Assembly (NCBI RefSeq): GCF_014697025.1
Contig: NZ_JACJRC010000018.1
Coordinates: 1 to 64,000, forward strand
Origin: Alkalinema sp. FACHB-956
GTDB lineage: Bacteria; Cyanobacteriota; Cyanobacteriia; Leptolyngbyales; Leptolyngbyaceae
DNA length: 64,000 bases
Direction of reading: 5' to 3'
Position 1 is the stretch's first letter. The number at the start of each line of letters is the position of its first letter. Of the stretch, positions 28,117 to 48,235 are shown piece by piece. A model generated the notes under the pieces. That model was given only the letters and a program-made list of their open reading frames with translations, did not search any database and was not told the origin of the DNA. The translations under genes were made by a program, and so were the position numbers.

Positions 28117-28122
28117 CGATCC

Positions 28123-30681: not shown

Positions 30682-31665
30682 TTAGGTCAAAGTAAAGCTG
30701 GGTGAAGGGCCAAAAATGCGATCGGTTAACTTCACATACCAAGCCGCAGCCTGAACCTGAATAATGTAAGCCATGGCAATAATTAAAGCAATTTCAGAGC
30801 CCTGCTCTTTCCCAAAGGCCGTCATCGCGATCGCAAGGGCAATGGACAAATTACGCATGACCGTGCCATACACTAAAGCAATCGCATCTCCCCGTTGAAA
30901 GAACATCTTACCTACAACTGTACTGATTAAAAAATTTGCAACATATAAAATTGCCAAAGGAATCAGAAAAGATAACAAGATACCAGGGTTGCTAACAATA
31001 CTCTTCGCTTTGAGAGCCATGGCAACAAAGACAATCCCTAAAACCCCGATCGTCGAAAAACTGGGAAACTTCTCTTTGAGATTTTTTTGATACTTATCCA
31101 TTCTCACAATGCGAATTAGGATAAGCCGCGTGGCAATCCCCAAAATCATCGGCAGAAATACAATGATAATAATTTGTCGGAAAATATCCATAAGGGGAAT
31201 TTCGATCGCGGCTCCCATCAGCCACTTCGCATAAAACGGAGTCGCCAGTGAACCTAGGATTAAACCCACCACCGTCATTTTGACCGCAGCACTCAGATTG
31301 CCCTTCGCAAAGCCTGTCCAGGAAATGGTCATTCCACTAGTGGGTAACAGCGAAGCCAACAGTAGCCCCAACAGCACCAAAGGCTGCCCATGGAAAAACA
31401 GTTGGCCAATTCCAAAAGCCATAAATGGGATAACAGCAAAATTGATCAACTGCGTCACGAATTGAAGCTTAAAATCTCCTCCCGTCAACACTTTTTGAAT
31501 TTGCAAATTGATCATCATGGGATAGACCATGAGGAACGTTAGCGGAATCACCCAAGCCTTCAGTGGATCTGGGTTCACCACTACGCCTATGACAATTCCT
31601 GCAATCATACAAATGGGAATCGACCAAACCAAATTTTTCTGAAGCAGCCCTAAAAATTTCCACAC
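30682..31665 (-). CDS. Bile-acid:sodium symporter / ACR3-type permease
   Basis: About 327 residues with about ten hydrophobic segments (for example IPICMIAGIVIGVVV, FVTQLINFAVIPFMAFG). The LLPTSGMTISWTGFAKGN and TVMRNLSIALAIAMTAFG blocks place it in the BASS/ACR3 superfamily, which includes arsenite exporters and organic-anion:sodium symporters. Substrate is not decidable. GTG 31665 is chosen since AGGAGGG lies 8 bases upstream; the open frame continues 22 residues further. It follows the DUF302 gene on the same strand (115 bp), so the two are likely cotranscribed from the operator region at 32.3 kb. Confidence 0.8.
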   Translation of the reverse strand: MWKFLGLLQKNLVWSIPICMIAGIVIGVVVNPDPLKAWVIPLTFLMVYPMMINLQIQKVLTGGDFKLQFVTQLINFAVIPFMAFGIGQLFFHGQPLVLLGLLLASLLPTSGMTISWTGFAKGNLSAAVKMTVVGLILGSLATPFYAKWLMGAAIEIPLMDIFRQIIIIVFLPMILGIATRLILIRIVRMDKYQKNLKEKFPSFSTIGVLGIVFVAMALKAKSIVSNPGILLSFLIPLAILYVANFLISTVVGKMFFQRGDAIALVYGTVMRNLSIALAIAMTAFGKEQGSEIALIIAMAYIIQVQAAAWYVKLTDRIFGPSPSFTLT

Positions 31666-31780
31666 AATAGTTGCCCTCCTGTAGCATGGGTCAACTGCTG
31701 ACCATTCAGTCAACCCAAGGTTAATGATCAATCCGTGACTTCTGTAAAGGCGCTAGTCAAGGCGCTAGTGAATTCGTCAT

Positions 31781-32191
31781 TTATGCCGGAAGCGAAGCAT
31801 TTTGCCTTAACCGCTCCATCACAGCCTGCATAATTTGACTCCCTTCGTTAGCAATCACTTGAGCATGGGGATCAGTAATCGCTAGAAACATCATCTTAGG
31901 ATCAACCGCAGACACCTCAATTTGGCCGTTTTCCTGTTCCTGAACAACAACATTACAAGGGTAAAAGACACCCGCCTTATCATCGGTCTGCAACATCCGA
32001 TAGGCGATTTTGGGATGGCAAGCGCCTAGGATTTTGTAACGGCGGAAATCAACATCCAGCTTTTTCTTAAAGGCCGCTTGGACATCAATCTCGGTCAGAA
32101 TCCCCATCCCTTCCGCCTGAAGCGCTGCGGTCACCTGCGCGATCGCGTCATCAAAGGTGCAATTCAAAGTTTGACTGAAGTGATAAGCCAT
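31781..32191 (-). CDS. DUF302-domain protein
   Basis: 136 residues. The family is recognised by FDDAIAQVTAALQAEGMGILTEIDVQAAF, ILGACHPKIAYRML and PCNVVVQEQENGQIEVSAVDP. Biochemical function is unknown; DUF302 genes are often found beside sulfur-oxidation or metal-resistance genes. No signal peptide, so cytoplasmic. It starts next to the operator-like sequences at 32297-32330 and is divergent from the haem-protein gene. Confidence 0.85.
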   Translation of the reverse strand: MAYHFSQTLNCTFDDAIAQVTAALQAEGMGILTEIDVQAAFKKKLDVDFRRYKILGACHPKIAYRMLQTDDKAGVFYPCNVVVQEQENGQIEVSAVDPKMMFLAITDPHAQVIANEGSQIMQAVMERLRQNASLPA

Positions 32192-32296
32192 CGGTTATAG
32201 CCTAATGAGCGTGAACAATTGTCAACTATATTAAGGAGCTGAGTGAAAGGTCTAAGGAATTCGCCCGGTAAGAATCAGACTTCACCAGCTAGTTGA

Positions 32297-32316
32297 TAAT
32301 ATAACTAAATAGTTGT
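32297..32316. promoter_or_regulatory. Operator-like motif, copy 1 (DUF302 / haem protein)
   Basis: TAATATAACTAAATAGTTGT lies between the divergent DUF302 and haem-protein genes. Its core ATAAC...GTTgT is an imperfect inverted repeat. The same 20-mer, 17 of 20 identical, is found at 44632-44651 upstream of the sulfide:quinone oxidoreductase. A dimeric repressor site is the natural reading. Confidence 0.6.
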
Positions 32317-32330
32317 AGAATGCAACTATT
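32308..32330. promoter_or_regulatory. Second inverted repeat overlapping the operator-like motif
   Basis: AATAGTTG (32308-32315) pairs with CAACTATT (32323-32330) across 7 bases. Together with AGTT at 32291 and AACT at 32303, the stretch 32290-32330 holds four alternating TAGTT/AACTA half-sites, as for a regulator binding more than one dimer. Confidence 0.55.
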
Positions 32331-32419
32331 GAATTCAATCTCTTCAGAAATAACCTGTGGGCAGCCATGACTTGCGGGTAATTTCCCTACTTAGCAGCAT
32401 TACATCGAGGCATCCCACC

Positions 32420-33085
32420 ATGGTCAACGAGTTTTCCCAATTTTCTTTGAGGCTACTGTTTGGGATGGTGATTATTCTCGGGATCATTTGCTGGATCATC
32501 CCAGCACCCGCTTGGGCTATAGAAGCTTCGATCGCCCAGTCCGTACCGCCGATCGTCACCAATCCAGCTGAGTTAACCAAAGCCATTCAAGCGATCGAGG
32601 ACTTAGATCAGATGCGATCGGGACTTGCTTCTACGTTGGAAGGACACACCGAAGAACCAACCCTGGAAACGATGAAAGAAGTTTGCCGTCCCGTAGGTAT
32701 GCAGGCGCAACGACTCAGCCAAGAAAACGGTTGGCAGGTCAAGCAAATAGCCGATAAATATCGCAATCCCGATCATGCGCCGGACAGTTCCCAGGCACGC
32801 CAAGCCTTAGCAACCTTTAGAAAAAATCCGGACTTAATGGGATTTTGGGAACATGCAACAATCAACGGGCAAGCAGGCACTCGTTACTATCGCCGCATTA
32901 ATGTAGAAGCCAGTTGCCTCGCCTGTCACGGACAGAAAAATCAACGGCCTCAGTTTATTCAAGAGAAGTATCTCGACGATCGCGCCTATGATTTCAACGT
33001 GGGCGACCTACGCGGCATGTATTCCGTTTTCATGCCTGATCTGAAAGCCGCCATTCAATCCGCATTACAAGACGGGATTCAGTAA
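32420..33085 (+). CDS. Secreted Tll0287-like (DUF3365) c-type haem protein
   Basis: About 221 residues. A signal peptide or membrane anchor (LRLLFGMVIILGIICWIIPAPAWA) precedes a domain ending with the haem-c motif CLACH (C166, C169, H170). The fold is like cyanobacterial Tll0287, a haem protein with a PAS-like arrangement whose role (redox sensing or electron transfer) is open. The DFNVGDLRGMYSV block after the haem site is typical of DUF3365. I chose ATG 32420 (MVNEFSQF); a GTG at 32357 would give a longer N-terminus. It starts a plus-strand series of secreted proteins and shares its control region with the DUF302 gene. Confidence 0.8.
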   Translation: MVNEFSQFSLRLLFGMVIILGIICWIIPAPAWAIEASIAQSVPPIVTNPAELTKAIQAIEDLDQMRSGLASTLEGHTEEPTLETMKEVCRPVGMQAQRLSQENGWQVKQIADKYRNPDHAPDSSQARQALATFRKNPDLMGFWEHATINGQAGTRYYRRINVEASCLACHGQKNQRPQFIQEKYLDDRAYDFNVGDLRGMYSVFMPDLKAAIQSALQDGIQ

Positions 33086-33225
33086 GCGATTCAGTAAATG
33101 ATTTAGTCAAGGTTCCAGCCAAGATTCTCGATCAATTGATACGAATTCAATCAGACTTTCCCCAGTTAGTCATCCGTAGTCATTTGTTCTTGCTGTCAAT
33201 GATTTCTTAAAACGTACTTCCATCG

Positions 33226-33771
33226 ATGTCTAAGCAATTCTCTCTCTGGTTACGCTCCATAATCGCGATCGTCATCATCACTGTAATTACATTGACCACA
33301 GTTTTAGGCTTCATCCCAACCTTACCCGCGATCGCAGCCATCCAGCAATTTGAGGAACAACCGGGTCAAACCGTCTACCAAACCAGACACCCACTCAAGG
33401 ATCAACAAGGTCGCACCTGGCAAGCGATCGCCTTTAAGCGCATTAAACCCGATGGAGCCACCGTCTTGAATTTCAGACTGGCAGGATTCCCCGGCAGCGT
33501 TCGGATCGATCGCACCCAGCCCCTACAATTCCGCAATTCCTTTGGCGAGATCCTCACCGCTGAGGACGCCTCTAGTCAAATGTTTAGCAATACCAACGCA
33601 CCGGAACCCCACATTGGACAATACAACCTACAACCGATTGTGTCTGATTTACGACTAGAGCTGCCTTGGCGCATAACCCTACCCACAGAATCCGGTAATG
33701 CCATCACATTCGCCTTACCCGCCACATTCCTAGCCGATTGGAGAACGTTGGATCAGCAAACCAAGGATTAG
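33226..33771 (+). CDS. DUF3122-like secreted protein
   Basis: 181 residues with an N-terminal hydrophobic segment (SIIAIVIITVITLTTVLGF) and cleavage-like ALA-type site (LPAIAAIQQF), then a beta-rich domain. The DUF3122 assignment, a family largely limited to cyanobacteria, rests on general pattern and context. Function is unknown. It lies between two other secreted proteins in the same orientation, in a possible operon from 32420 to 35183. Confidence 0.6.
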   Translation: MSKQFSLWLRSIIAIVIITVITLTTVLGFIPTLPAIAAIQQFEEQPGQTVYQTRHPLKDQQGRTWQAIAFKRIKPDGATVLNFRLAGFPGSVRIDRTQPLQFRNSFGEILTAEDASSQMFSNTNAPEPHIGQYNLQPIVSDLRLELPWRITLPTESGNAITFALPATFLADWRTLDQQTKD

Positions 33772-33883
33772 AGTCAGCAGCCGGTCATCACAAGTCGGTC
33801 ATCGTTGATTCACCCGCAATCCATCACTTTTACGATCGTGCATCCATCCCCTAGCAAACATTCTTCCAACCCTGGAGATCAGC

Positions 33884-34399
33884 ATGAATTCCTACCGCCT
33901 ACAGTATGGATTAACCGCTAGTTTTTCCGTTTTCGCGATCGGGTTAATGGTTTCTGCCACCTCACCCACCACCACCATGAGCGCCGCTAGTCCGCCCCTA
34001 GATGCAAAAACCCACCAGGCCATGATTGATGCCATCAACGATGAGTTTCATGCACGCGCTTTCTACACCGCAGTCATCCAGAAATTTGGGACTCTCCGTC
34101 CTTTTAGCAACATTGTCCAAGCGGAAAATCGCCATGTTCAGCACTGGGAAACGCTTTTCCAACGCTATGGAATCCCCATCCCCCAGGACACCTTTGCCGA
34201 TCGAGTAGACGCCCCGCAAACCTTGCGACAAGCCTGTCAAATGGGCATCGATGCTGAAATTGCCAACATCAAACTGTACGACAATTTTTTAAATTTTGTT
34301 CAACAGACTGATTTGCGGGATCTCTTCACACAATTACGTTCCGTTTCCGAAAACAACCATAAACCGGCGTTTGAGCGTTGTCTACAACGACAATCTTAA
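33884..34399 (+). CDS. Secreted ferritin-like (DUF2202-type) protein
   Basis: 171 residues. After a signal peptide-like segment (FSVFAIGLMVSATSP), four helices carry the acidic and histidine residues of a ferritin-like di-iron bundle: NDEFHARAFYTAV, AENRHVQHWETLF, DAEIANIKLYDNF and SENNHKPAFERC. The E-x-x-H pairs in helices 2 and 4 could bind two metal ions. Family role is unclear; metal binding or peroxide handling in the periplasm is plausible. Confidence 0.75.
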   Translation: MNSYRLQYGLTASFSVFAIGLMVSATSPTTTMSAASPPLDAKTHQAMIDAINDEFHARAFYTAVIQKFGTLRPFSNIVQAENRHVQHWETLFQRYGIPIPQDTFADRVDAPQTLRQACQMGIDAEIANIKLYDNFLNFVQQTDLRDLFTQLRSVSENNHKPAFERCLQRQS

Positions 34400-34466
34400 C
34401 AACGCCCCTCTTAACGTTGATCCTGACTTCAATCACGATTCCTTAACTACCTACGGGAGAACACCC

Positions 34467-35183
34467 ATGCCATCCACGATCGCATCCACCTCAACCCACC
34501 ACCAACCCAACCAACCGCCAGCCCTCCCAGAAATTCCCCCCGGCTATCTTAATGTCATGGGCTATGTAGATAACTCCGAAGTCAATGGCCCTGGGGTGCG
34601 GGCCGTCCTGTGGGTACAGGGCTGTGGACGGCATTGTCCGGGCTGCTTCAATTCCCATTCTTGGCCCTTTGAGATTAACCAATTGGTGAGTGTGGACGAA
34701 GTGGTGCGCCAGGTTCTGCGCGAACCTCGCAACCAAGGCATCACCTTTTCCGGTGGCGAACCCTTTAAGCAAGCAGTGGCCTTAGCCCAGGTCGCTAAAC
34801 AACTGAAGGCGCAAGGATTGACCGTAATGTCCTTTACAGGCTTTACGCTGGAACAATTGCGATCGCGCCAAGCCCCAGTGGGTAGTCAGGACTTACTCGA
34901 CCAGTTAGACATTCTCATTGATGGCCCCTACGTTGCCTCCCAGGCCATTCATTCCCCCAATTCCCCCGTCTCCTCTAGCAATCAACGGGTGCATGTGTTT
35001 AACCCAGCGCTACAACATCAAATTGACTGGGCCAGCGACGCAGTAGAAATCCATATTTTGCAAGATGGTCAGCGGATTATCACAGGCTATCGCGGCCACA
35101 TGGCTTTCTCCGAGTCGGAAGATGAATCTGGAATGGCATTCCAATCTGAGCGGGGATCTCATTCCGCCACTGCTCCAGCTTAA
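34467..35183 (+). CDS. Radical-SAM activase-like protein (NrdG/4Fe-4S single-cluster type)
   Basis: About 238 residues. The radical-SAM cluster motif CxxxCxxC is intact (CGRHCPGC) after VLWVQG, followed by the GGEPF SAM-binding block, TGFTLEQL and DILIDGPYV. This matches glycyl-radical-enzyme activases such as anaerobic ribonucleotide reductase activase NrdG. No NrdD or pyruvate-formate lyase is in the window, so the partner is elsewhere or it has another role. ATG 34467 has GGGAGA 6 bases upstream; the longer open frame would overlap the DUF2202 gene. Its stop codon overlaps the end of the convergent NUDIX gene by 4 bases. Confidence 0.8.
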   Translation: MPSTIASTSTHHQPNQPPALPEIPPGYLNVMGYVDNSEVNGPGVRAVLWVQGCGRHCPGCFNSHSWPFEINQLVSVDEVVRQVLREPRNQGITFSGGEPFKQAVALAQVAKQLKAQGLTVMSFTGFTLEQLRSRQAPVGSQDLLDQLDILIDGPYVASQAIHSPNSPVSSSNQRVHVFNPALQHQIDWASDAVEIHILQDGQRIITGYRGHMAFSESEDESGMAFQSERGSHSATAPA

Positions 35184-35764
35184 ATCCGTTGCATCAAGTA
35201 CCATTCCTGTAAGACCGATCGACATTGCAGACAGGTTAAATCCTGGAGCAGCGATCGCAGCCCCTTTGCCTCGATCGGATAACGCAGGATGGAGCCAACA
35301 GTATTTGCAGGATTTAATGCTGAAGCTGAAGCCGTTGTAATTTCTGCAACCCATCCATAGAGCCTTTGGTTAGAAAACGAGCTATTAATTGCCCAGCCTT
35401 GGGAATTCAGCGGTTCTAGGGTTGCGATCGCAGCCGCAGGAATCCCCAATTCCCGGAGCAGAATGTCGTAGGCCGTTTCCCGCAAATCAGCCCCTAGTGG
35501 CAGTCGTCCCCCCGGAAAATCTAATGTCGCTTGGCTAACACCGGGACGGTAGCTTGGTTGGGGCAACAGAAACTGCTGATCTTGAATCGGAATCACGATC
35601 AGAGAATCAGCCTTTTCGACTCGCCAATATTCCAGGTAATTCCCTTGATGATCCTGGAGATGTTCGCCAATCACCGTTAACCAACGGGACTGGATTTCAA
35701 CAAAGCGATCGTGGATTTTCCAGGGCACAGTATTAAGATTCGTTGACTGTGTTGCGTTGTTCAT
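35180..35764 (-). CDS. NUDIX-fold protein with degenerate catalytic box
   Basis: 194 residues with the ADP-ribose pyrophosphatase-like layout (WKIHDRFVEIQSRWLTVIGEHL... VIPIQDQQFLLPQPSYRPG). In the NUDIX box (GX5EX7REUXEEXGU) the segment GRLPLGADLRETAYDILLRE keeps the first glycine and the last glutamate but has A for E, D-I for R-E and R for E. Most metal-binding acids are lost, so it is probably not a normal hydrolase and may bind a nucleotide as a regulator. Its 3' end overlaps the radical-SAM gene. No ribosome binding site is visible. Confidence 0.75.
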   Translation of the reverse strand: MNNATQSTNLNTVPWKIHDRFVEIQSRWLTVIGEHLQDHQGNYLEYWRVEKADSLIVIPIQDQQFLLPQPSYRPGVSQATLDFPGGRLPLGADLRETAYDILLRELGIPAAAIATLEPLNSQGWAINSSFSNQRLYGWVAEITTASASALNPANTVGSILRYPIEAKGLRSLLQDLTCLQCRSVLQEWYLMQRI

Positions 35765-35805
35765 TGGATTTACGGTTTTCTGGTGTTAGGAAGGAGTCCT
35801 GTATT

Positions 35806-37491
35806 ATGACAAAACTTCATATCAATTTTAAGTCAATCACTGCAATCCTATTTCCCAGTTCATTATTACTATTTACCAGTGGATTTGCCAGTGGAGTAGC
35901 AGCAGAAACTACGTCCGCACCAGCAACACTCGATCGCAACTCTAACTCGATCTCGAACGATTTCCTCGACAATTCACTGACTAATCCCTCCACCGATTCC
36001 TTGGCAAATCCCTTGGCTCAAGTCACTAGCGTTTCCCAATTGAGTGATGTGCAACCTACGGATTGGGCGTTTCAAGCGCTGCAAGCCTTAGTAGAACGCT
36101 ATGGTTGCATTGCAGGATATCCCGATCGCACCTATCGTGGTAATCGAGCAGTCACCCGTTACGAGTTTGCCGCTGGATTAAATGCTTGCATTGACCAAAT
36201 GAACCAGCGGATTGCCGTCGCAGGAGCAGAACTCGCTACCCAGCAAGATTTAGCGACCCTCAAACGCCTCCAAACGGAATTTGCCCCAGAACTGGAGACT
36301 TTGCGGGGGCGAGTGGATGGCTTAGAGGCCAAAACTGCTACGCTTCAGAAACAACAGTTTTCCACCACCACTAAATTACAGGGTGAAGTCATTTTCTCGG
36401 TGACTGGTGCGATCGGGGATGAGCGGGCCGATGGCAGCGGACGCAGTGTCGATGACAATTGGGTTATGGATAACCGAGTGCGATTGAGTTTAAATACCAG
36501 TTTTACGGGCAAAGACCTGTTAAAAATTCGCCTTGACGCCTTGAATACCACGCCCTTTGGCGTCAACGTCACGGGCACCAATATGACCCGCTTGGCCTTC
36601 GACGGGTCAACGGATAACCAATTGCAAATCGGGCGATTATTCTATCGCTTTCCCCTATCACCCAAATTGCGGGTCACGATCGATGCCGCCGAGAGTCGCT
36701 ACGATACCGCTGTTGAAACGTTCAATCCCTTTTTTGCCAGCCCCTACAAAGGCGCAATTTCCAACTTTGGGCGGTTCAATCCCATTTATATCCAAGGTCG
36801 CCGAGGCGCAGGCGTCACCGTCTCCTACGATATCAGTCGATCGCTGAATTTCTCCGTCGGCTACATGGCACGCAATCCTGCGGAACCGACCGCCAACAAT
36901 GGCCTGTTGAATGGCTCCTTTGCCGCCTTAGCCCAGTTAACCGTCCGCCCGTCTGACACGCTCAGTTTTGGCGCAACCTATGTACGAGCTTACTATCCCC
37001 CTGGCAAAGCCTTCCTCACCGGGGGCACGGGCAGTCGGCTGGCTAATTCCCCCTTTGGCACGATCGCCACGTCAGCCAATCACTTTGGTTTGGAATCTAG
37101 TTGGCGCGTCAATCCTAAATTTACCCTATCGGGGTGGGTCGGCTGGACGCGGGCCGAAGCTGAAGGCGATGGCTTTGGCTTAGGTCGCGTGCCCGTCCGC
37201 CAAGGGGACCGCGCCTCGATTTTCAATTGGGCTGTCACGTTCGCCTTTCCCGACTTGGGTAAAAAAGGTAGCTTAGCTGGGTTAATTATTGGCCAGCAAC
37301 CCAAAGTCACCCAAAATGACAGTGGTGCGGAGGAGGGTACAAGTTCCTGGCACCTCGAAGGACTCTATCGCTATCCAGTGAATCAACATTTATCCCTCAA
37401 TCCTGGAGTCTTGGTAATTTTCAATCCTGAAAACAACAGCAACAACGACACGATCGTGGTTGGAACGGTACGGGCAATTTTTGAGTTTTAA
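35806..37491 (+). CDS. SLH-domain OprB-type outer-membrane porin
   Basis: About 561 residues. Signal peptide (ILFPSSLLLFTSGFASGVAA), a low-complexity linker, an SLH domain (about 75-130, DVQPTDWAFQALQALVERYG and GYPDRTYRGNRAVTRYEFA) that binds the cell wall, a short coiled coil (about 140-185), then a long beta-barrel ending in FEF. This is the layout of cyanobacterial iron- or solute-permeable porins. AGGAAGGAG lies 9 bases before ATG 35806. Substrate is not decidable; it may take up iron or other small ions. Confidence 0.88.
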   Translation: MTKLHINFKSITAILFPSSLLLFTSGFASGVAAETTSAPATLDRNSNSISNDFLDNSLTNPSTDSLANPLAQVTSVSQLSDVQPTDWAFQALQALVERYGCIAGYPDRTYRGNRAVTRYEFAAGLNACIDQMNQRIAVAGAELATQQDLATLKRLQTEFAPELETLRGRVDGLEAKTATLQKQQFSTTTKLQGEVIFSVTGAIGDERADGSGRSVDDNWVMDNRVRLSLNTSFTGKDLLKIRLDALNTTPFGVNVTGTNMTRLAFDGSTDNQLQIGRLFYRFPLSPKLRVTIDAAESRYDTAVETFNPFFASPYKGAISNFGRFNPIYIQGRRGAGVTVSYDISRSLNFSVGYMARNPAEPTANNGLLNGSFAALAQLTVRPSDTLSFGATYVRAYYPPGKAFLTGGTGSRLANSPFGTIATSANHFGLESSWRVNPKFTLSGWVGWTRAEAEGDGFGLGRVPVRQGDRASIFNWAVTFAFPDLGKKGSLAGLIIGQQPKVTQNDSGAEEGTSSWHLEGLYRYPVNQHLSLNPGVLVIFNPENNSNNDTIVVGTVRAIFEF

Positions 37492-37574
37492 GGTACGATC
37501 GAAAGCTAGTGAATCATTCATAACCAATCATTCATAACCAATAAATTATCCAATTTTCCATTGCGAGATTAACC

Positions 37575-38087
37575 ATGAATCAATTCAAAGAATGGGGCTA
37601 TTCCACCCAATGGTGGCGGGGCAAGCGGGGGGAATATTGGGTTATGGGACAGATGATTCTCTTCATCACTTTTGTGTTGCTGCCTGTCTATCCTTTCCTT
37701 TCCAGAGAACCGCTATCCCCCCTGTGGAATTATAGTGTTTGGGGCCTCACAGGACTATTGGGTTTAGTGTCCATTGTCCTGTTAGTGGGCGGCGTGCTGA
37801 AACTGGGAGGTAATTTGACCCCCTTACCCCATCCAAAAGACGATGGCGAATTAGTGACGATCGGCGTTTACAGCATCGTCCGCCATCCGATTTACAGTGG
37901 CGTGATTTTTGCCGCGATCGCCTACAGTTGCTGGCGGTGGAGTCTGAGCCACGCGATCGGAGCCGTGATTTTCTTGCTATTTTTTGATCAGAAAGCTAAG
38001 CAAGAAGAATCCTGGCTCAAGACGAAATTTTCCGATTATGAAAATTATCAATCCCGCGTTAAAAAGCTGATTCCTTGGATTTACTAA
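37575..38087 (+). CDS. Isoprenylcysteine-methyltransferase-like membrane protein
   Basis: 170 residues with three or four hydrophobic segments, and the ICMT/PEMT-family C-terminal half: GELVTIGVYSIVRHPIYSGV, then a helix and SDYENYQSRVKKLIPWIY. Family members methylate isoprenyl-cysteine or lipid amines with SAM; bacterial substrates are usually unknown. A 14-bp direct repeat (AATCATTCATAACC) lies in its leader around 37511-37540. Confidence 0.75.
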   Translation: MNQFKEWGYSTQWWRGKRGEYWVMGQMILFITFVLLPVYPFLSREPLSPLWNYSVWGLTGLLGLVSIVLLVGGVLKLGGNLTPLPHPKDDGELVTIGVYSIVRHPIYSGVIFAAIAYSCWRWSLSHAIGAVIFLLFFDQKAKQEESWLKTKFSDYENYQSRVKKLIPWIY

Positions 38088-38212
38088 AATCGCCACAATA
38101 GGAGCAACCTCAGAATTTTCTAGACGGCACAAATCGCCCTATTCATCCCTGAAAAAAGCCATCTGTGGTTAAATACCCATAGGATTCTAACGAAATCACG
38201 ATCGAGATCACT

Positions 38213-38665
38213 ATGTGGCAGAGTGCGATTACAGCCTATTTACATTACTTGGGCTTCATGCTGGCCTTTGGAGCCTTAGTTATGGAACATCACCTTCTCA
38301 AACCCGACCTCAAACTCCAAGCAGCTTGGCAACTTCTTATCGCCGATACTATTTATGGCCTCTCGGCATTAATGGTTTTGGTTACTGGGATTTTGAGAGT
38401 TCTTTATTTTGGTAAAGGCACCGATTACTATTTGAGTGATCCCGTTTTTTATACCAAGATTGGAATTTTCATCATCGTCAGCCTACTGTCCCTATATCCC
38501 ACCTTTTCCTTCCTCTCCTGGATCAAAGGATTACGGAACCAGACACCTCCCCCGTTGGCTTTACCCCAAGTGCAACGCCTATCCTGGTTCATCCGAGGAG
38601 AGCTATTAGGATTTGCGCTCATTCCCCTATTTGCTGCAATGCTTGCACGAGGCATTCATCCATAA
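38213..38665 (+). CDS. DUF2214 small membrane protein
   Basis: 150 residues, four hydrophobic segments, and ITAYLHYLGFMLAFGALVMEHHLL at the start; these fit the DUF2214 family. Conserved histidines in the first two helices could bind haem or quinone, but no function is known. Its last 47 bases overlap the convergent cysteine synthase gene. Confidence 0.7.
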   Translation: MWQSAITAYLHYLGFMLAFGALVMEHHLLKPDLKLQAAWQLLIADTIYGLSALMVLVTGILRVLYFGKGTDYYLSDPVFYTKIGIFIIVSLLSLYPTFSFLSWIKGLRNQTPPPLALPQVQRLSWFIRGELLGFALIPLFAAMLARGIHP

Positions 38666-39650
38666 CCCCAAGCTGTTCATTCTCTAAATCCCCAACATCC
38701 GGAGGGTTTAGAGAATCGATCGACTGCCAGAGGGGAGTGCTCAAGTAACGCTCGCCATCACTAGGTTGAATCCCTACAACTAAACGATCTCGATAGGTCG
38801 ATCGTTGCCCAATTTGTAGGGCTGCGAACAGAATTGCCCCAGTGGAAATTCCACCCATAATTCCTTCCTGGGTCGCAAGCTGTTTACCGATGTTGTAGGC
38901 TTGTGATTCACTAACAGTAATAATTTCATCAATCAAATCTACCCTTAGGACATCGGGAATGAAGCCTGCACCGATACCTTGAATATTATGAATACCCGCT
39001 GGCTGGTGGCTGAGAACCGCACTAGCAGCAGGCTCGACGGCAATGATTTGAACACTAGGCTTCTGCTGCTTGAGGTAGCGCCCAGCTCCGGTGAGGGTTC
39101 CTCCCGTTCCCACCCCAACCACGATCGCATCCACCTCGCCATTGGTATCCTGCCAGATTTCTGGGCCAGTTGTGCGGTAATGGATTTGTGGATTAGCAGG
39201 ATTGCTAAATTGCTGGGGAGAAAAAGCCTTAGGGATACTGGCAAGCAACTCATTGGCGCAGGCGATCGCCCCTGGCATATCAGCATAGGTCGGAGTCAAC
39301 ACCACTTCCGCACCATAGGCCCGTAATAATTGTTGGCGCTCACGGCTCATATTTTCCGGCATCGTCAAAATAAGACGATACCCCTTGGCTGCACAAACCA
39401 TCGCTAGACCAATTCCTGTATTTCCGGAGGTCGCTTCAATAATCGTGGTGTGTCCCGGTTGAATCAAACCCGCTGCTTCTGCGGCATTGATCATACTGAT
39501 AGCAATCCGATCTTTCACCGATTTAGTTGGATTCATGCTTTCCAGTTTAAGCACAATCTGCGCAAGACACTGGTATTGCTGTGGGAGCCGCTGAAGTTGC
39601 ACTAACGGAGTACGACCAATCAATTCGGTAATGTTGGTATGAATAGTCAT
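38619..39650 (-). CDS. cysK: Cysteine synthase (O-acetylserine sulfhydrylase)
   Basis: 343 residues. Makes cysteine from O-acetylserine and sulfide, so it consumes sulfide. PLP lysine in NPTKSVKDR (about K43), substrate loop EATSGNTGIGLA, and PLP-phosphate loop GVGTGGTLTG are intact, followed by GGISTGA and DGERYLSTPLW. About 35 extra residues after that motif (SLNPPDVGDLENEQLG...) form a C-terminal extension. It lies between the DUF2214 gene, which it overlaps at the 3' end, and the CNB-AAA-ferredoxin chimera on the same strand. In this context it may remove sulfide. Confidence 0.93.
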   Translation of the reverse strand: MTIHTNITELIGRTPLVQLQRLPQQYQCLAQIVLKLESMNPTKSVKDRIAISMINAAEAAGLIQPGHTTIIEATSGNTGIGLAMVCAAKGYRLILTMPENMSRERQQLLRAYGAEVVLTPTYADMPGAIACANELLASIPKAFSPQQFSNPANPQIHYRTTGPEIWQDTNGEVDAIVVGVGTGGTLTGAGRYLKQQKPSVQIIAVEPAASAVLSHQPAGIHNIQGIGAGFIPDVLRVDLIDEIITVSESQAYNIGKQLATQEGIMGGISTGAILFAALQIGQRSTYRDRLVVGIQPSDGERYLSTPLWQSIDSLNPPDVGDLENEQLGVMDECLVQALQQIGE

Positions 39651-39805
39651 GATGAAAATCAGGATTACAAAACAAGAATGACAAAATCGGTATCAGTTTT
39701 AGAAGAATGCAATGATCAATGAGTTAATTTTTATTTAATAAAGAATTTTGAAAAATATATAATTAGGATTAACCACACTTCTGATTGGAATTCATCACAA
39801 ATTCA

Positions 39806-42556
39806 TCACAGAATCAACTTGAAAAAAATCAACGTCAAACTCATCATACAGAGCAAATGGGGTAGATTATGAATCCACGATCGCTGAGTAATTCGTAACA
39901 GTGGATAAACACTAAATCCTAAACCTGATAGCAAGGTTAATCCCTGTAAAAACTGAGCAACATCTATACTCCAAGTTAAGGTTGGCCAACCTAGTCCACT
40001 GAAACCAAATGTTCTTGCCATGACCGGGAGAATTTGACCCGCTTCCGTCATGGCAGCAGGAGTGTAGTGAGCAAGATTAGCCGCAAGGGTGATGGGTAAA
40101 TAGGCATAAATTACGGTTAAATAATCTGGCATTTGCCGATCGAACAATCGAGCGAACTGATGCACTATGTAGGTCAACAGCATTGGTAAGCTCAATATCC
40201 CCAACACCCAGGGAAGTCCAGTCCACAAATGATTAGCATCAATACTCCAGTTAGCCGCACCTACCAGAGCTAAGATACGATCGCTATGGTGCATGAACAC
40301 ACCACCCAATAATAGCAACAATAGAGCAACTTCCGCCCCAAAACCACGGTGATCTTCTAATAAATCCGTGGCTGGAAAGCGTAAATTTAATTGCACCGAT
40401 CGATTCGGACAAGCTTTCAAGCACGTCATACATAACACACAATCACGATTATCCTGCAATTGCGCGGGATGGGAATAGAGTGGACACCCCCCCGTAGCTT
40501 GACCTTCGTTCGGTAATGCATCCTTGAAACTCACTGGCGTTGCATCACTCCCTTTATAGCAACCAAACGTACTACACTGAGTGCCACAGATTTGTTGGGT
40601 CGATCGTAGTTCCAGCAATGATAGTTTTGCAAACAAACCATTCATTCCACCAATGGGACAAAGATAGCGACACCAGACACGGCGTTCATAAATCACACTC
40701 CCAATGACCGCCCCCGCAGAAATCACCACTAGCAACCAGGACGACAAATAGGGGGTATGGGGCAAATCCCAAAACTTTTCCCATAGATAAATCAACAAGA
40801 ATCCCCCAAACAGTAGCCATGCCCCCCAGCGATTCAGCCACTTCGTTGGCCAGGGTAATAACGGCCTCGGCCACAACCAGAGCGAAATTTGCCGGAACCA
40901 CTCCCCCGTAATCATAAAAGGACAAATTGCACACCACAATCGTCCAACAAACAAAAATAAAAATAAATACAAAGGCCACCACCAAGCCCAAAAAAGATTC
41001 AGCGTCATGCTGGCATCCCGAGTTTGGGGACCGATATACCCCATCACGGTGACGGGTATAAACATCAGCATTACAACCATCCAGAAACCCTTAGGCCACC
41101 ATGAACTCAAGAGCAAACGCCGTAGCCAAGGTAACTGTTCCAAGAGGTCAATGCGGAAGGCATTTTTCTTCGATTGTAATGACCATAATACTTGTTCCGG
41201 AATCACCGTTTGGTCTACAGGCGTCATGATCACCGCCCGTTTCAGAATACCTGCTAATTCAGGTAAGTTGCCAGGGTAGTCATAACTAAGCAAGCGACGA
41301 AGATCAGCCTGACTGAGTTGCAAGACTGAGCGCCCCTGCGCCTGACAGAATTGGGCAATCAAACTGTCCGCAAATGCAGGAATATCACTTTTGCGCTGAG
41401 CCAGCGTATATAACTTGAGCCGATGGGCAGAAATTTCCGGCAAGGCGATCGGGTAAGGACTGGCCAAAATCAGCCTCGCCCAAGAGGCCACAGGCCCAAC
41501 TTTGAAATCATCAATTTTAGGATTCCCTTGAGCATTGACAGTAGAATCCGTCAAATTAGCCTGCGCTCTGGTTGTATTCAGCAAAGGATTTCGCAGGAAA
41601 TGCCCCGTTTTCAGATAGTGGATCAGCCGATCGTGATCCGCCGGAGACAACATCTGTACCTGATCCAACAACACCGTGCCCCGCTCCAGTAACTCGATGA
41701 CCCCCGCAGCTTCCCCGTCCCGACCAAAAATCACATCTGAACTGACAAAGCCAGTCGTATCTCGCGGCAGTTGGGTGCAGTCGATTTCCACAAAGGGTCG
41801 ATCGCGCAAACCTGACTGCTGATGCAAATAACCAGCCAAGAACGTTTTTCCGGTTCCATTGGCCGCTTGAAACACGATCGGCTTCACGTCTTGGGCCGCT
41901 AGTTCAATCTGTTGAATCAACTTCTGAGCCGCTTTACTGGCCGCGATCGGCGTTATATTGTGGGGTGTAGAACAAATCCAGTCTTGTAATCCCTGAATAC
42001 GAACTTGTTCCTGGGAGATCCGTTGAGTAAACTCAGCCAAGTCCTTGACTAAGAGTTGGCTGATCAAATTGAGAATCGCCGGAAAGGCTTGACTCAATTG
42101 GAGTAAACTCGATCGCCCCAGAAACCAGATTTCGCTAGCACTCACTGCAATCGCACTGGTTTGATAGGTCACTGCGATGGAGGCAAGATCCTCGCCCCCA
42201 TCAGTCATCAAACTAGAGACTAAGGGGACATAACCAAACACATCCCCGGCCTGATGGTAAAGAATATGGGTTTTTCCCACAGCGGAGGCGCGATAAATTT
42301 CCACACTGCCCCACTTCAGCCAATAGAGCCCGATCGCCCCTTGACCTTCCCGGTAAATTTCTGTCCCGGCAGCCACTTTCATGGACTGTAGAGACTGGGC
42401 AATCGCAGCTAAAGTCAGATCATCCAATTGCCCCCACACCCGATGAAAACTCAGCCACTCTAAAGAGTCCTCTGCCATAGCGGGATTGGTGGCAGCGCCG
42501 TCCTCTGTCACCGACCCCAATGGTAAAAGGATAACTTCACCCATTCTCTTTGACAT
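39806..42556 (-). CDS. Chimera: cyclic-nucleotide-binding domain, degenerate sigma-54-type AAA+, membrane polyferredoxin
   Basis: 916 residues. Order: Crp-like cyclic-nucleotide-binding domain (about 45-160); AAA+ domain of sigma-54-activator type (about 200-465) with Walker A NGTGKT (233-238), Walker B-like TVLLDQ (294-299) where the catalytic E is Q, no GAFTGA loop, but YDYPGNLPELAGILKRA retained; then a membrane polyferredoxin (about 485-916) with WCAICP (C542, C545), WCRYLCP (C629, C633), four cysteines CGTQC, C666 and C691, and CVLCMTCLKACP (706-716), as in NapH/NosR/CcoG. It has no Fis-type DNA-binding domain and cyanobacteria have no sigma-54, so it is unlikely to activate transcription. 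More likely it is a membrane redox sensor or electron-transfer protein. Likely cotranscribed with the small protein 28 bases upstream, and perhaps with the quinone oxidoreductase. Confidence 0.85.
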   Translation of the reverse strand: MSKRMGEVILLPLGSVTEDGAATNPAMAEDSLEWLSFHRVWGQLDDLTLAAIAQSLQSMKVAAGTEIYREGQGAIGLYWLKWGSVEIYRASAVGKTHILYHQAGDVFGYVPLVSSLMTDGGEDLASIAVTYQTSAIAVSASEIWFLGRSSLLQLSQAFPAILNLISQLLVKDLAEFTQRISQEQVRIQGLQDWICSTPHNITPIAASKAAQKLIQQIELAAQDVKPIVFQAANGTGKTFLAGYLHQQSGLRDRPFVEIDCTQLPRDTTGFVSSDVIFGRDGEAAGVIELLERGTVLLDQVQMLSPADHDRLIHYLKTGHFLRNPLLNTTRAQANLTDSTVNAQGNPKIDDFKVGPVASWARLILASPYPIALPEISAHRLKLYTLAQRKSDIPAFADSLIAQFCQAQGRSVLQLSQADLRRLLSYDYPGNLPELAGILKRAVIMTPVDQTVIPEQVLWSLQSKKNAFRIDLLEQLPWLRRLLLSSWWPKGFWMVVMLMFIPVTVMGYIGPQTRDASMTLNLFWAWWWPLYLFLFLFVGRLWCAICPFMITGEWFRQISLWLWPRPLLPWPTKWLNRWGAWLLFGGFLLIYLWEKFWDLPHTPYLSSWLLVVISAGAVIGSVIYERRVWCRYLCPIGGMNGLFAKLSLLELRSTQQICGTQCSTFGCYKGSDATPVSFKDALPNEGQATGGCPLYSHPAQLQDNRDCVLCMTCLKACPNRSVQLNLRFPATDLLEDHRGFGAEVALLLLLLGGVFMHHSDRILALVGAANWSIDANHLWTGLPWVLGILSLPMLLTYIVHQFARLFDRQMPDYLTVIYAYLPITLAANLAHYTPAAMTEAGQILPVMARTFGFSGLGWPTLTWSIDVAQFLQGLTLLSGLGFSVYPLLRITQRSWIHNLPHLLCMMSLTLIFFKLIL

Positions 42557-42584
42557 TACACACTATGATGGCTCAACTCAGCAG

Positions 42585-42935
42585 TTAAGGTTTCACTTGC
42601 AATGTCCGATCTAGTTCTGCCAGCAAATCCACCAGCCGTTGTTTCACCGAATCAAGACTGATTGCCGGATTATCCTCAATACCCATCGCCGTCAATTGCA
42701 ACCCAATCTCCACCGCATCCTGGGGACTAAAACTTAACACCAACATTTGTGATGCAGTTTTATGGGGATCCACTTCCAAATTGAGGTGAATTTCCGCTGG
42801 GTTTTGGGCTTCTTGACCCACGATCGCGCCAATCCGCGACACTTTACTCCCTCGCACCGTCATCACATCTTCCACATGGCCCATCACGGTGATGTTGCCC
42901 GTCGTCAGATCATGGGTGACATATTTGACCGTCAT
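42585..42935 (-). CDS. Small unrecognised protein between SQR and chimera genes
   Basis: 116 residues (MTVKYVTHDLTTGNITVMGH...). No signal peptide or membrane segment. A predicted beta-rich half (RGSKVSRIGAIVG, EIHLNLEVD) is followed by a helical C-terminus (SLDSVKQRLVDLLAELDRTL). I cannot assign a family. AGGAGG stands 7 bases before the ATG, so it is well translated. Gaps of 28 bp to the chimera and 120 bp to the SQR gene suggest one transcript. Confidence 0.7.
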   Translation of the reverse strand: MTVKYVTHDLTTGNITVMGHVEDVMTVRGSKVSRIGAIVGQEAQNPAEIHLNLEVDPHKTASQMLVLSFSPQDAVEIGLQLTAMGIEDNPAISLDSVKQRLVDLLAELDRTLQVKP

Positions 42936-43019
42936 AAGATTGCCTCCTCATTGTTGTAGTTGCCGTTTTCCAATTCACCTTGCCTCAAACTGATCAGTCT
43001 TTCCCAATCGATAAAGCCC

Positions 43020-43058
43020 TCATCATCATGAACTCATCATGAACTCATCATGAACTCA
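43020..43058. repeat. 11-bp tandem repeat at SQR stop codon
   Basis: TCATCATGAAC repeats three times (about 43023-43055), ending in the TGA stop of the oxidoreductase at 43056-43058. Copies lie just downstream of the gene on the minus strand. Confidence 0.85.
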
Positions 43059-44360
43059 TCCATTGGCAATGCGCTGGGAGAGGGTACTCGGCTGCGATCG
43101 CACCAGATCGACCCCAAATAACGCCTTTAACCCCGACCGCTCAAACCAAGGAACCGCCGCCCCTAAACGCATCTTGGTCATAAAGTATTGCTCAAAGGCC
43201 GCTTTGCCCCAAACCACCCATTTGCCTTGCACCGCATAGGAATAGCGACGTTTTCCAGTCTCTGAGTCAGGCAGCACAGGAGCCGCAACATAGAGAATGC
43301 CCGTCTCCCCAAACTCCGCAAAGCAAATGGCTTCTAACGTGGGGATTTGCGGATCGGCCTGAAGGGCTCCCAACGAGACTGCGATATTATGGGCCACTGC
43401 CATCCCCATAGCTTCCGTCATTTGGCCACTCTTGGGCATCCCGATCGGCACTAGAGACTTCTCCGGCTGCGCCAGAGCTACACTAACCCCCAAGGCATAA
43501 ATCTCAGGGAACTGGGAATGCTGGTGGGTCGCCGTAATGGGAATAAACCCTTTGTCATTGCCCAAACCCGGTGCATCGAGAATAAATTGCACACCTCGGA
43601 ACGCTGGCAAAATCATCGCGTAATCTTGGGCAATCTCTCGCCCATCCTCTAGCGTAATTTTATCGACCGTCACTGATGTAATTGCAGCATTGTTAATAAT
43701 ATTAATATTGTGTTTACGCAATAAGTTTTCCGTCAATCGCTGCGCATTTTTCACGCCACTCACCCCTAAATGTCCGACATAGGGTTCTGGTGTCACCAAG
43801 GTGAGGGTAGCTTGCTGGCGTAATCCTTTGCGCCGCAAAATCCAATCAGCCATCAAGATAAACTCATAGGCTGGCCCAAAGCATCCCGCTCCCGGTGCCG
43901 CCCCCACCACCAACGATCCAGGGTTTTCCAAAAACTTGAGCCAAGCAGCCCTAGCCTCCAAAGCATGTTGAGCGGAGCAAATCGAATGGGTATAACCTCC
44001 GTGGGGCCCCAACCCAGGAATGGCGTCAAAGGCAAATCCTGGCCCCGTCGCGATCGCCACATAGTCATACTCAATTACCTGCCCATTGGCTACCGTAATG
44101 CGCCGTTGATGCGGATCGAGAGCAGTTACCGGGCTATTGACAAAGTCTAACCTGTGCTTTTGCGCCAAGGGTTGCAGCTCTAACTGAAAATGATCGATCG
44201 AATCAAGATCTAACGCCACGCGAACCAGCCCCGGAATAAACATAAATTTGGGCTGCTCGGAAATTAGGACCACTTGATGTTCAGCAGGCAAAAGCTGTCT
44301 CAGTTCGTAAGCCGTGGGCAGTCCACCCAAACCAGCTCCAATCACAACAATTGTAGCCAT
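43056..44360 (-). CDS. sqr: Sulfide:quinone oxidoreductase-like flavoprotein
   Basis: 434 residues. FAD fold VVIGAGLGGLPTAYEL at the start. The three cysteines of SQR are present: C128 (HSICSAQ), C160 (GAGCFGPAYEF) and C346 (EAICFAEFG), close to the positions in Rhodobacter SQR (C127, C159, C353), with an unhindered quinone-binding region and C-terminal segment. It would oxidise sulfide to polysulfide or sulfur and reduce plastoquinone. A related NDH-2 role is possible but would not need these cysteines. GAATT-CTCCT-AATTC, an inverted repeat around the AGGAG of the leader, lies at 44368-44382. First gene of a minus-strand series; a shared operator-like motif lies 270 bases upstream. Confidence 0.82.
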   Translation of the reverse strand: MATIVVIGAGLGGLPTAYELRQLLPAEHQVVLISEQPKFMFIPGLVRVALDLDSIDHFQLELQPLAQKHRLDFVNSPVTALDPHQRRITVANGQVIEYDYVAIATGPGFAFDAIPGLGPHGGYTHSICSAQHALEARAAWLKFLENPGSLVVGAAPGAGCFGPAYEFILMADWILRRKGLRQQATLTLVTPEPYVGHLGVSGVKNAQRLTENLLRKHNINIINNAAITSVTVDKITLEDGREIAQDYAMILPAFRGVQFILDAPGLGNDKGFIPITATHQHSQFPEIYALGVSVALAQPEKSLVPIGMPKSGQMTEAMGMAVAHNIAVSLGALQADPQIPTLEAICFAEFGETGILYVAAPVLPDSETGKRRYSYAVQGKWVVWGKAAFEQYFMTKMRLGAAVPWFERSGLKALFGVDLVRSQPSTLSQRIANG

Positions 44361-44824
44361 AGGATATGAATTCTCCTAATTCATCAATTCGGGAATAGGC
44401 ATTACGGGAATGTGCATTCATCGGAAATATGCACTAATCGGTCATCCCGACAGGAATAAAAACGCAATGGAAGGAGAAGGAATTATGGAAAGGAAACGTC
44501 AACAGGACTACGCAGCCATTGACTGCCCATGCCAAATTTTGCTGCCTAAGGGAAACCGCCTTCAATCGAGGAACAGCAGAGAAACAGCAGAGAAACGGCT
44601 TTCAATGCTGAAACTACCTGACCTGATTATCTAATATAACCATATAGTTATTCAAATTAAAAGCGATCGGTTCAAGAAGTTTTACAGAGTCCTTTGATCC
44701 GGTGAACCCCAGACTGGTAAGCTGAACCCATGAACTGGTTGCAGATTTGACAAATTGCGTGTTTGAAAAACTACGGGTTTGATGAATGACGTGGCCAGTG
44801 TTCTTTTTGGAATCCGTCTTGGCC
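44361..44824. other. Intergenic region upstream of SQR
   Basis: 464 bases between the divergent SQR and Sua5-like genes. It holds the SQR leader with the inverted repeat around its ribosome binding site, a small direct repeat (AACAGCAGAGA twice, near 44574-44596) and the operator-like motif at 44632-44651. A 74-codon open frame at 44410-44634 has no family features, and I do not call it a gene. Confidence 0.55.
44632..44651. promoter_or_regulatory. Operator-like motif, copy 2 (upstream of SQR)
   Basis: TAATATAACCATATAGTTAT contains the inverted repeat ATAAC-N6-GTTAT. It matches 17 of 20 bases of the motif at 32297-32316, more than 12 kb away and at the other end of the gene group. It lies about 270 bases before the SQR start and 174 bases before the Sua5-like gene, so which gene it controls is open. 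Confidence 0.6.
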
Positions 44825-45487: not shown

Positions 45488-46648
45488 TTAATGTAACGGC
45501 CCCCCTAAAATCGTTTTTGCGATCGCCCCCGTCACCTCCAAGGGATCTTCTGTGGCCAGTTGGTCGTACCATTGCTGCGTCACCTGCGGATCTTTACCAT
45601 GGATCATTTCCGCCCGTTGCCGTGCCTTCCTCACCACCGCACTCACGCGATCGCGGCGTTGGCGTTCGTAAAGCTGTAATGCATCTTCCACACCCACATT
45701 GGTGGTCACTAAACATTGCGCCAGGACTAAGGCATCTTCCATGGCTTGGCATCCCCCTTGGCCCAAGTCCGGACAGGTCGTGTGAGCCGCATCTCCCAGC
45801 AACGCCACACGGCCTTTGACTAAGCGATCGATCGGCCCCATGTCGTGAATTGCGAGCCTTGCCGTTGCCTGCGGATCGACGCCATCGATTAACCGTTGCA
45901 CAGGTTCTGCCCAGCCTTGGAAATGGTGTTGCAGTTCCGCTTTGACCCCTGCCGGATTCGCCCCTGCCTCCAGCGGCAACGGCACATCAAAAAAGAAGTA
46001 AAAGCGATCGTTTGCCACGGGCATCATGGAAGCTCGCTGGTGCTGACCAACGTAAACCACCCAGGTTTGCGACGGCGCGAGATCGGCACTGGCTGCCACT
46101 AACCCATTGAAATTGACATAGCCAGCATAGTTGGGATGAAACGGTTGACCCAACACGTATTCCCGCAAGTTCGATCGCACCCCATTGGCCGCAATTAACA
46201 GATCGCCCGTTGCACAATGGCCATTTTCAAACCGTGCGGTGACTTGTCGATCGGTCTGCTCAATCTCTACGCAGCAATGGTTTAAATTCACGGTTCCGTC
46301 AAAGGCTTGCAGCAAGATGGCTTGTAGATCCGCCCGCGCCACAGGATAGGGACATTGGCCTACGGATTGCACCAACGGAGCCAGATCAATGTCATTCAAA
46401 ATCCGACCGTCTAACCAACGGTATTCCATCCGAGCCATCCTGCCACCAATCTGAGCAATTTCTCGCCCCAACCCCAACCAGTTCAGCACCTTCACGCCAT
46501 TCGACCAGAGGGAAATCCCAGCACCCACGGGCCTGAGCTCCTGCACCCGATCGTAGATTTCCACCTCATAGCCCGCCTTCCGTAGAGCAATTCCCGCCGT
46601 CAGTCCACCAATCCCCGCCCCAATGACGATCGCCTTTAAACCCTGCAT
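45488..46648 (-). CDS. hpxO: FAD-dependent urate hydroxylase (HpxO-type)
   Basis: 386 residues of the flavin monooxygenase group: VIGAGIGGLTAGIALRKAGY, ANGVRSNLREY and GDAAHTTCPDLGQGGCQAMEDA. HpxO oxidises urate to 5-hydroxyisourate with NADH and O2. This substrate is inferred mainly from the next genes, whose enzymes take the following two steps; other flavin hydroxylases share the fold. GGGAG lies before the ATG. Third gene of the minus-strand series HIU hydrolase, OHCU decarboxylase, HpxO. Oxygen-dependent, unlike the fermentation genes elsewhere in the window. Confidence 0.85.
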   Translation of the reverse strand: MQGLKAIVIGAGIGGLTAGIALRKAGYEVEIYDRVQELRPVGAGISLWSNGVKVLNWLGLGREIAQIGGRMARMEYRWLDGRILNDIDLAPLVQSVGQCPYPVARADLQAILLQAFDGTVNLNHCCVEIEQTDRQVTARFENGHCATGDLLIAANGVRSNLREYVLGQPFHPNYAGYVNFNGLVAASADLAPSQTWVVYVGQHQRASMMPVANDRFYFFFDVPLPLEAGANPAGVKAELQHHFQGWAEPVQRLIDGVDPQATARLAIHDMGPIDRLVKGRVALLGDAAHTTCPDLGQGGCQAMEDALVLAQCLVTTNVGVEDALQLYERQRRDRVSAVVRKARQRAEMIHGKDPQVTQQWYDQLATEDPLEVTGAIAKTILGGPLH

Positions 46649-46724
46649 ACAATTTCTCCCTAGTAATCATCGAACAATCAATCTGTTGTTGATTCCAGCC
46701 ATCATCCTAATGCAGACTATCCTG

Positions 46725-47240
46725 TCATCTCAGACTATCCTGTAATCTAAATTGAGCAATAGTCGCAATTTCTGCCAATGCCGTTTGTTGCTCCTGCTCC
46801 GGTGTATTCTGGAGCCGTTGTTCAAAGGCTTCTAGAATCGTTGTCTTGGTATGGTTGCGCACTGCGATGATGAAGGGAAAGCCAAATTTGGCTTTGTAGG
46901 TCTGATTGAGGGCCTGAAAGCGATCGTATTCACTAGCCGTGAGTTGATCGAGCCCCACCCCCGCCTGTTCCTTGACCGAGGCTTCAGCCATCTTGGCTCG
47001 ACTGCCTAAATCCGGATGGGCGCAGATCAGATCAATCTGTTGCGCTGGGGGCAATTGATCTACGATCGCGACCATTTTCTGGTGGAGATCTGTAATACTG
47101 ACAAAGGGCCGCTGTAACCAAGCCTGTTGAGCAATTCTCGGCGTTTGTTCAAAAATATGCCCCAGGGCTGCTATAAAATCCAGTTCAGACATTGCATTCA
47201 ATTCGATCAGGGAATAGGTTGGAGCCATACCTAAACTCAT
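46725..47240 (-). CDS. uraD: 2-oxo-4-hydroxy-4-carboxy-5-ureidoimidazoline (OHCU) decarboxylase
   Basis: About 171 residues, all-helical. Catalytic histidine in CAHPDLGSRAKMA, with the FGFPFIIAVRNHTK substrate block and FEQRLQNTPEQEQQTALAEIATIAQFRLQ C-terminus. It decarboxylates OHCU to S-allantoin. The ATG at 47240 (MSLGMAPTYS) has GAAG 5 bases upstream; a downstream ATG at 47228 would also serve. It lies between the genes for the preceding and upstream steps. Confidence 0.92.
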   Translation of the reverse strand: MSLGMAPTYSLIELNAMSELDFIAALGHIFEQTPRIAQQAWLQRPFVSITDLHQKMVAIVDQLPPAQQIDLICAHPDLGSRAKMAEASVKEQAGVGLDQLTASEYDRFQALNQTYKAKFGFPFIIAVRNHTKTTILEAFEQRLQNTPEQEQQTALAEIATIAQFRLQDSLR

Positions 47241-47301
47241 AGATACTTCAGACAAACTATCACGCGAGAGACCGGAAGCATAATTTCTAAACTCAGTAAG
47301 A

Positions 47302-47661: not shown

Positions 47662-47808
47662 TGGTGTTTACCAGGAAAGTGGGTCGATCAAAATTGGAGA
47701 GTTGGGAATATTTTATTTTCGTTATAGCATAGGCGTAGTGGCGCATTTGTGCTGGACTGATCAGATTGCAAGAAAACTCAGATCAGGAGAAGACACTTGG
47801 GAGAAGAC

Positions 47809-48216: not shown

Positions 48217-48235
48217 TCTCGGCTCTTCGGTGCAT

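Follow-up and report, generated by a model that had tools for sequence, protein, structure and literature searches.

Predicted operators of a (per)sulfide-sensing ArsR/SmtB repressor at a sulfide island of Alkalinema sp. FACHB-956 and before micro-oxic psbA genes

Photosynthesis in cyanobacteria alternates between an oxygenic mode and an anoxygenic one driven by sulfide. In Synechocystis PCC 6803, the ArsR-type repressor SuoR is reported to bind a promoter region common to suoSR and suoCT and to repress both (review, PMC4307280). For the proteobacterial repressors SqrR, BigR and YgaV, the release step is persulfide modification of cysteines (PMC9774250). A further regulator, RexT of Nostoc PCC 7120, binds ATTCG-N15-CGAAT and uses the vicinal pair Cys40-Cys41 (PMC13421787). 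Here we analysed the first 64,000 nt of contig NZ_JACJRC010000018.1 of Alkalinema sp. FACHB-956 (the window), in which a type I sulfide:quinone oxidoreductase (SQR) gene and its neighbours form a putative sulfide island with a similar 20-bp palindrome at either end. We put the probability that both palindromes are operators of one SuoR/SqrR-like (per)sulfide-sensing ArsR/SmtB repressor at about 0.8.

The palindromes and their distribution

The two sites, operators 1 and 2 (Table 1), are identical at 17/20 bases, and each is a near-perfect palindrome of the form ATAACTA-WW-TAGTTAT. An earlier reading of the sequence (the original prediction) had both coordinates and the count exactly right and had described an ATAAC/GTTAT-type inverted repeat in each. 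It had also placed the sites in divergent promoter regions, and this is where they lie: operator 1 between a DUF302 gene (ATG 32191, minus) and a Tll0287-domain gene (ATG 32420, plus), and operator 2 between the SQR gene (ATG 44360, minus) and a Sua5/YrdC gene (plus). In the window, 431 distinct 20-mer pairs differ at no more than three positions, so the similarity of the two sites is by itself insignificant.

To obtain independent information on the motif, we took the 320 bp preceding each of 25 SQR genes in other cyanobacterial genomes, with the window genome excluded, and applied unseeded expectation-maximisation. The result was the palindrome ATATAACTATATAGTTATAT, carried by 88% of these promoters, with a log-likelihood of 190 as compared with 35-37 for shuffled sequences. 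The palindrome also emerged when symmetry was not imposed. When this SQR-derived motif was run over the window, it scored 22.5 bits at 44634 and 20.0 bits at 32299; the next score was 6.6, and only these two positions reached at least 8 bits. A profile built from 26 sites of other genomes ranked the two window sites at the head of the whole Alkalinema genome, followed by C23:48578 (before an arsR gene), C20:47314 (before psbA), C23:49943 and C23:49928. Another match, at C6:203648 (11.2 bits), has no sulfur gene nearby and was taken as noise.

Counting matches to the consensus proved less informative. With up to three mismatches there are three in the 6.16-Mb genome, the third lying ~145 bp upstream of an operon with YeeE/YedE and ArsR genes on contig C23; a reversed control pattern was likewise matched three times, so that this number is weak evidence by itself. 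Plain consensus counts over 386 genomes were similar in number for the forward and the reversed pattern, and we therefore relied on position-specific tests only. The motif was present at SQR promoters in 26/33 genomes; its frequency in random 450-bp stretches was 2.9%. In a test with column-permuted motifs, the true motif hit 17/32 SQR promoters (permuted mean 0.4, maximum 7). The genome-wide scan proposed in the original prediction showed that the motif is not frequent at random AT-rich sites of this genome. The presence of the sites, their rarity and their conservation across families, as well as the ArsR operon and the conserved cysteines described below, are read from the sequences themselves.

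Gene order in other genomes joins what the window holds apart. In G109 and G213, SQR, operator, DUF302 and an SBF-family transporter gene are adjacent, so that both ends of the window island meet. On plasmid pSYSM of Synechocystis PCC 6803 the order is chrA, DUF302, operator, SQR (suoS), ArsR (suoR), Tll0287-domain and DUF3122; there, as in G109 and G213, DUF302 is divergent from SQR across the operator. The site in the suo promoter (GAATATAACTACATAGTTGTATTC; L172:5946-5969) lies 32-55 bp before suoS and has 18/20 bases as in operator 1. In Leptolyngbya sp. Heron Island J, DUF302, SQR, both YeeE/YedE genes and an ArsR gene (82% identical to that of contig C23) lie together in 4 kb, interspersed with operators. 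Nodosilinea LEGE 07088 has radical-SAM, DUF2202, 116-aa, CRP/AAA+/Fe-S and cysteine synthase genes of the window type near a C23-type ArsR gene. The original prediction of a sulfide island was borne out in that other genomes, too, combine SQR and the operator with genes for DUF302 (SuoC), the SBF-family transporter, the Tll0287-domain protein and DUF3122.

Both window sites have promoter-like hexamers on either side (Table 1). Those at operator 1 match the consensus at 10/12 positions (0.8 expected by chance in the region, hence weak alone), and those at operator 2 at 9/12 (~1 expected by chance). Over all 90 operator sites, which have mixed targets, such hexamers were found 24 times as compared with 10.7 with shuffled flanks, a modest excess.

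A candidate repressor and its rivals

The operon on contig C23 encodes two YeeE/YedE-type membrane proteins, a 150-aa ArsR (about 48048-48500, minus strand, unlinked to the window island), a persulfide-dioxygenase-like metallo-hydrolase and a SulP transporter. Two overlapping operators precede its first gene and one lies 77 bp before arsR. The ArsR protein has an ArsR/SmtB winged helix (HTH_5, 51.2 bits; NF033788, ArsR/SmtB subfamily, 82.3 bits, cut-off 55); it scored 40.5 bits against the NCBIfam BigR model, below the cut-off of 155. Likewise, the metallo-beta-lactamase (MBL) hydrolase matched the Blh model at 106 bits, below its cut-off, and one of the YeeE/YedE-type proteins had a match, also below cut-off, to the model of the thiosulfate transporter TsuA. 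Judged by these family assignments, the gene content is that of a bigR/sqrR-type operon.

The genome has six ArsR-like genes, and two of the products, that of C23 and the C3b protein from contig C3, have the recognition helix QANVSKHLK. In a tree, the SuoR, C23-type and C3b-type groups were separate, with a poorly resolved C23/C3b boundary. The C23 ArsR is the best match to SuoR in this genome (40% identity) and was placed in a sister group. Within the C23-type clade, Cys64 is conserved at 81%, Cys122 at 98% and Cys126 at 92%, and Cys64 occupies the alignment column of SqrR's first sensing cysteine. A single-sequence structure prediction of the ArsR had a mean predicted local distance difference test score of 44.6 and was not used.

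From these data we infer the following switch. A repressor dimer, most likely of the 150-aa C23 ArsR, would bind the 20-24 bp palindrome TAATATAACTA-WW-TAGTTATATTA. This sequence overlaps the predicted core promoter, where it lies between the −35 and −10 hexamers or covers them, so that the genes would stay off while repressor is bound. Once persulfides form by oxidation of sulfide, Cys64 together with Cys122 or Cys126 would be modified or cross-linked, and the repressor would be released. SQR, the DUF302/transporter pair, Tll0287/DUF3122, the C23 YeeE/YedE-ArsR-persulfide dioxygenase-SulP operon and the D1′ form of psbA (see below) would then be switched on jointly. The original prediction had attributed the sites to a common regulator, for example an ArsR/SmtB-family repressor, encoded outside the window; such a repressor is still the best explanation, given a C23 ArsR with operators of its own and a suo promoter that has the same site and is reportedly bound by SuoR. 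That the C23 protein is the repressor acting on the operators seems to us quite probable.

Several observations weigh against this assignment. Cys122 and Cys126, although conserved, fall outside the column of the second SqrR cysteine. A strong site lies directly upstream of only 11/80 C23-type arsR genes from named genomes, and the co-occurrence of regulator and operator across genomes gave p = 0.19, with few negatives. Finally, the operator stands at SQR in G213 and G215, and the only ArsR found in these two genomes was the C3b paralogue, with neither a SuoR- nor a C23-type protein. This last point, together with the identical recognition helix, would fit a scheme in which the operators are bound mainly by the C3b-type ArsR (widespread in cyanobacteria and encoded beside accB/efp) and the C23 ArsR serves its own operon only, or in which the two share the sites. 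We consider it unlikely: neither here, where the best score is 8.4 bits, nor in relatives does the C3b gene have a site nearby, C3b-type genes occur also in genomes without such an SQR, and it is the C23 operon that has three sites.

The inducer has to be weighed as well. A group of ArsR proteins could share one box for different inducers, the window sites answering arsenite or metals rather than sulfide. SuoR, in Nagy's description of 2014, reportedly responds to arsenite and sulfide, and the transporter downstream of DUF302 is ACR3-like. That protein falls far below the ACR3 cut-off, however, and the operator targets are SQR, persulfide dioxygenase, YeeE/YedE, SulP and D1′ psbA genes rather than arsenate reductase or arsenite methylase; an arsenite or metal response thus appears improbable. 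That two AT-rich intergenic stretches resemble each other by chance, for which the equally similar pairs in the window would speak, is refuted by the unseeded motif from other genomes and by the rarity and rank of the two sites in the genome-wide profile search. A (per)sulfide-sensing repressor acting on both sites thus remains our preferred explanation.

In several genomes we also observed a variant palindrome with ATTAC/GTAAT-like arms (TTATACTACCATATAGTAATATGA), located before C23-type arsR or between it and the persulfide dioxygenase gene (L122:5912-5935, L132:5686-5709 and similar MBL-ArsR intergenic regions). From its position it may be an autoregulatory form.

Operators before D1′ psbA genes

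The site at C20:47314 lies ~274 bp before a psbA gene whose product has P144, L158, M173 and A286. We take positions 158 and 286 to be part of the D1′ signature. The changes C144P and P173M have been described for PsbA2 (PMC9709244). On the basis of these residues the gene is the micro-oxic D1′ (PsbA2) form. To compare psbA promoters in general, we included only genes retrieved by D1 similarity; D1′ loci that had come from motif or ArsR searches were excluded because they are biased toward success. An operator of at least 13 bits was found at 9/11 D1′-type promoters versus 0/20 standard psbA promoters (Fisher p = 2.7e-6). All 11/11 D1′-type promoters reached at least 10 bits, the highest of the 20 standard ones being 8.3 bits, and by genus the result at the 10-bit level was 6/6 genera (p = 4e-6). 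Moreover, 14/22 D1′ promoters have a TTGAC element at most 16 nt 5′ of the operator, and a bound repressor would therefore cover the core promoter there. In several genomes, D1′ genes lie beside SQR and C23-like arsR genes.

Two features of the Alkalinema gene tell against its inclusion. Its site is weaker than most (12.8 bits, E 1.4 for the genome in the profile search), so that for this genome alone the claim leans on the comparative pattern, and its promoter is without the TTGAC element. Predicted membership of D1′ psbA in the operator regulon is thus strongly supported across genomes and moderately supported in this one. We cautiously favour the wider view that D1′ is a direct target of a (per)sulfide-sensing ArsR across many families, that its low-oxygen induction is largely (per)sulfide sensing, and that sulfide oxidation and photosystem II remodelling form one regulon.

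Directly upstream of the Alkalinema D1′ psbA gene and its operator is another low-oxygen gene, a hemN-like oxygen-independent coproporphyrinogen oxidase (L251:10-1407). A plasmid of Pseudanabaena galeata has a strong operator match (19/22; L174:1237-1260) before DUF2892, petC (the cytochrome b6f Rieske protein) and a psbA gene (about 67% to D1′), and a near-identical site is present in G282 (L234:2523-2546). Judged by this arrangement, the same regulon may include the more divergent psbA together with an alternative Rieske protein.

Grim and Dick noted the proximity of SQR to psbA and of SQR to arsR, and described a connection of modified photosystem II with sulfide as intriguing and untested (PMC5061849). 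No operator for this link is named in the literature that we found, in a search made without the original SuoR description, and SuoR and sulfide are both absent from a 2026 review of cyanobacterial redox regulators. An operator common to SQR and D1′ psbA promoters and absent from standard psbA would provide a concrete molecular link that is now directly testable, as both a DNA element and a candidate repressor can be named. It could also be used to mark out sulfide-responsive genes, both in cyanobacterial genomes and in mats. The predicted regulon is wider than the window and takes in the unlinked ArsR operon and D1′ psbA, which could not be seen from the window alone.

Island genes and comparison with known systems

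Table 1. Positions of the operators, promoter-like elements and island genes in the window
Feature	Coordinates	Strand	Remarks
Operator 1	32297..32316	+	Palindrome TAATATAACTAAATAGTTGT; divergent DUF302 / Tll0287-domain promoter; second-best site in whole genome
Operator 2	44632..44651	-	Palindrome TAATATAACCATATAGTTAT upstream of SQR; best site in whole genome
Promoter-like −35 TTGATA (32293-32298), 17-nt spacer, −10 TAGAAT (32316-32321)	32293..32321	+	Spacer filled by operator 1; toward Tll0287/DUF3122 genes
Promoter-like −35 TTGAAT, 18-nt spacer, −10 GATAAT	44626..44655	-	Operator 2 inside spacer; toward SQR
Type I SQR, SuoS-like	43056..44360	-	Aquifex SQR 3hyv, E 5.9e-89
DUF302 protein, SuoC-like	31781..32191	-	PF03625, E 3.5e-25
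SBF-family (ACR3-like) transporter, downstream of DUF302	30682..31731	-	PF01758; far below NCBIfam ACR3 cut-off
Tll0287-domain (DUF3365) protein, first gene after operator 1	32420..33085	+	PF11845; follows suoR in Synechocystis
DUF3122 protein, second gene after operator 1	33226..33771	+	PF11320; same place in Synechocystis suo locus
DUF2202-like protein	33884..34399	+	Weak PF09968
CRP-like + sigma-54-type AAA+ + NapH/NosR-like membrane Fe-S fusion, island neighbour	39806..42556	-	Neighbour of C23-type ArsR in Nodosilinea LEGE 07088

The window SQR is 56% identical to Synechocystis SuoS, and its active-site cysteine regions align with those of the Aquifex enzyme, as expected of a type I SQR. 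The DUF2202-like gene is a probable further member of the gene group, as its homologues adjoin SQR in G019 and G042 and ArsR in Nodosilinea LEGE 07088. The cysteine synthase, porin and NUDIX-like genes, which also lie between operators 1 and 2, each lack an operator.

In the fusion protein of 916 aa, a CRP-like cNMP domain is joined to a sigma-54-type AAA+ domain with lid and to a NapH/NosR-like membrane 4Fe-4S domain. This is odd since, to our knowledge, cyanobacteria generally lack sigma-54. Homologues lie near ArsR genes (L361), and a 36% relative lies beside the C3b ArsR in L213. Just upstream of the island is a FeoA-FeoB pair (27877-29916); in G172, an operator-like site precedes a FeoAB pair (L115:6208-6231). 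On the other side, 45488-49177 encodes an FAD monooxygenase, an OHCU decarboxylase, a 119-aa transthyretin-like open reading frame and a polysaccharide-deacetylase-like one, and resembles a urate degradation cluster.

Among the known systems, RexT is likewise a cyanobacterial cysteine-based ArsR-family repressor, but neither its ATTCG-N15-CGAAT site nor its vicinal cysteines are found here. The candidate repressor has in common with SqrR, BigR and YgaV the ArsR fold, a cysteine at the first SqrR sensing position and an operon with a persulfide dioxygenase-like MBL protein and, as sulfur transporters, a YeeE/YedE pair and SulP. It differs from them in its score below the BigR cut-off, in partner cysteines that lie in shifted columns and in having a photosystem II subunit among its predicted targets. 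Compared with the Synechocystis suo locus, the window island is divided between two promoters at a distance of 12 kb and has neither SuoR nor any other ArsR gene beside SQR; its candidate repressor belongs to a sister clade and is encoded at an unlinked locus, and the transporter is of the SBF rather than the ChrA type. The operator itself is the same, with SQR, DUF302, Tll0287-domain and DUF3122 genes around it, and in both organisms the palindrome stands before SQR and DUF302, at one common promoter in Synechocystis and at two in the window.

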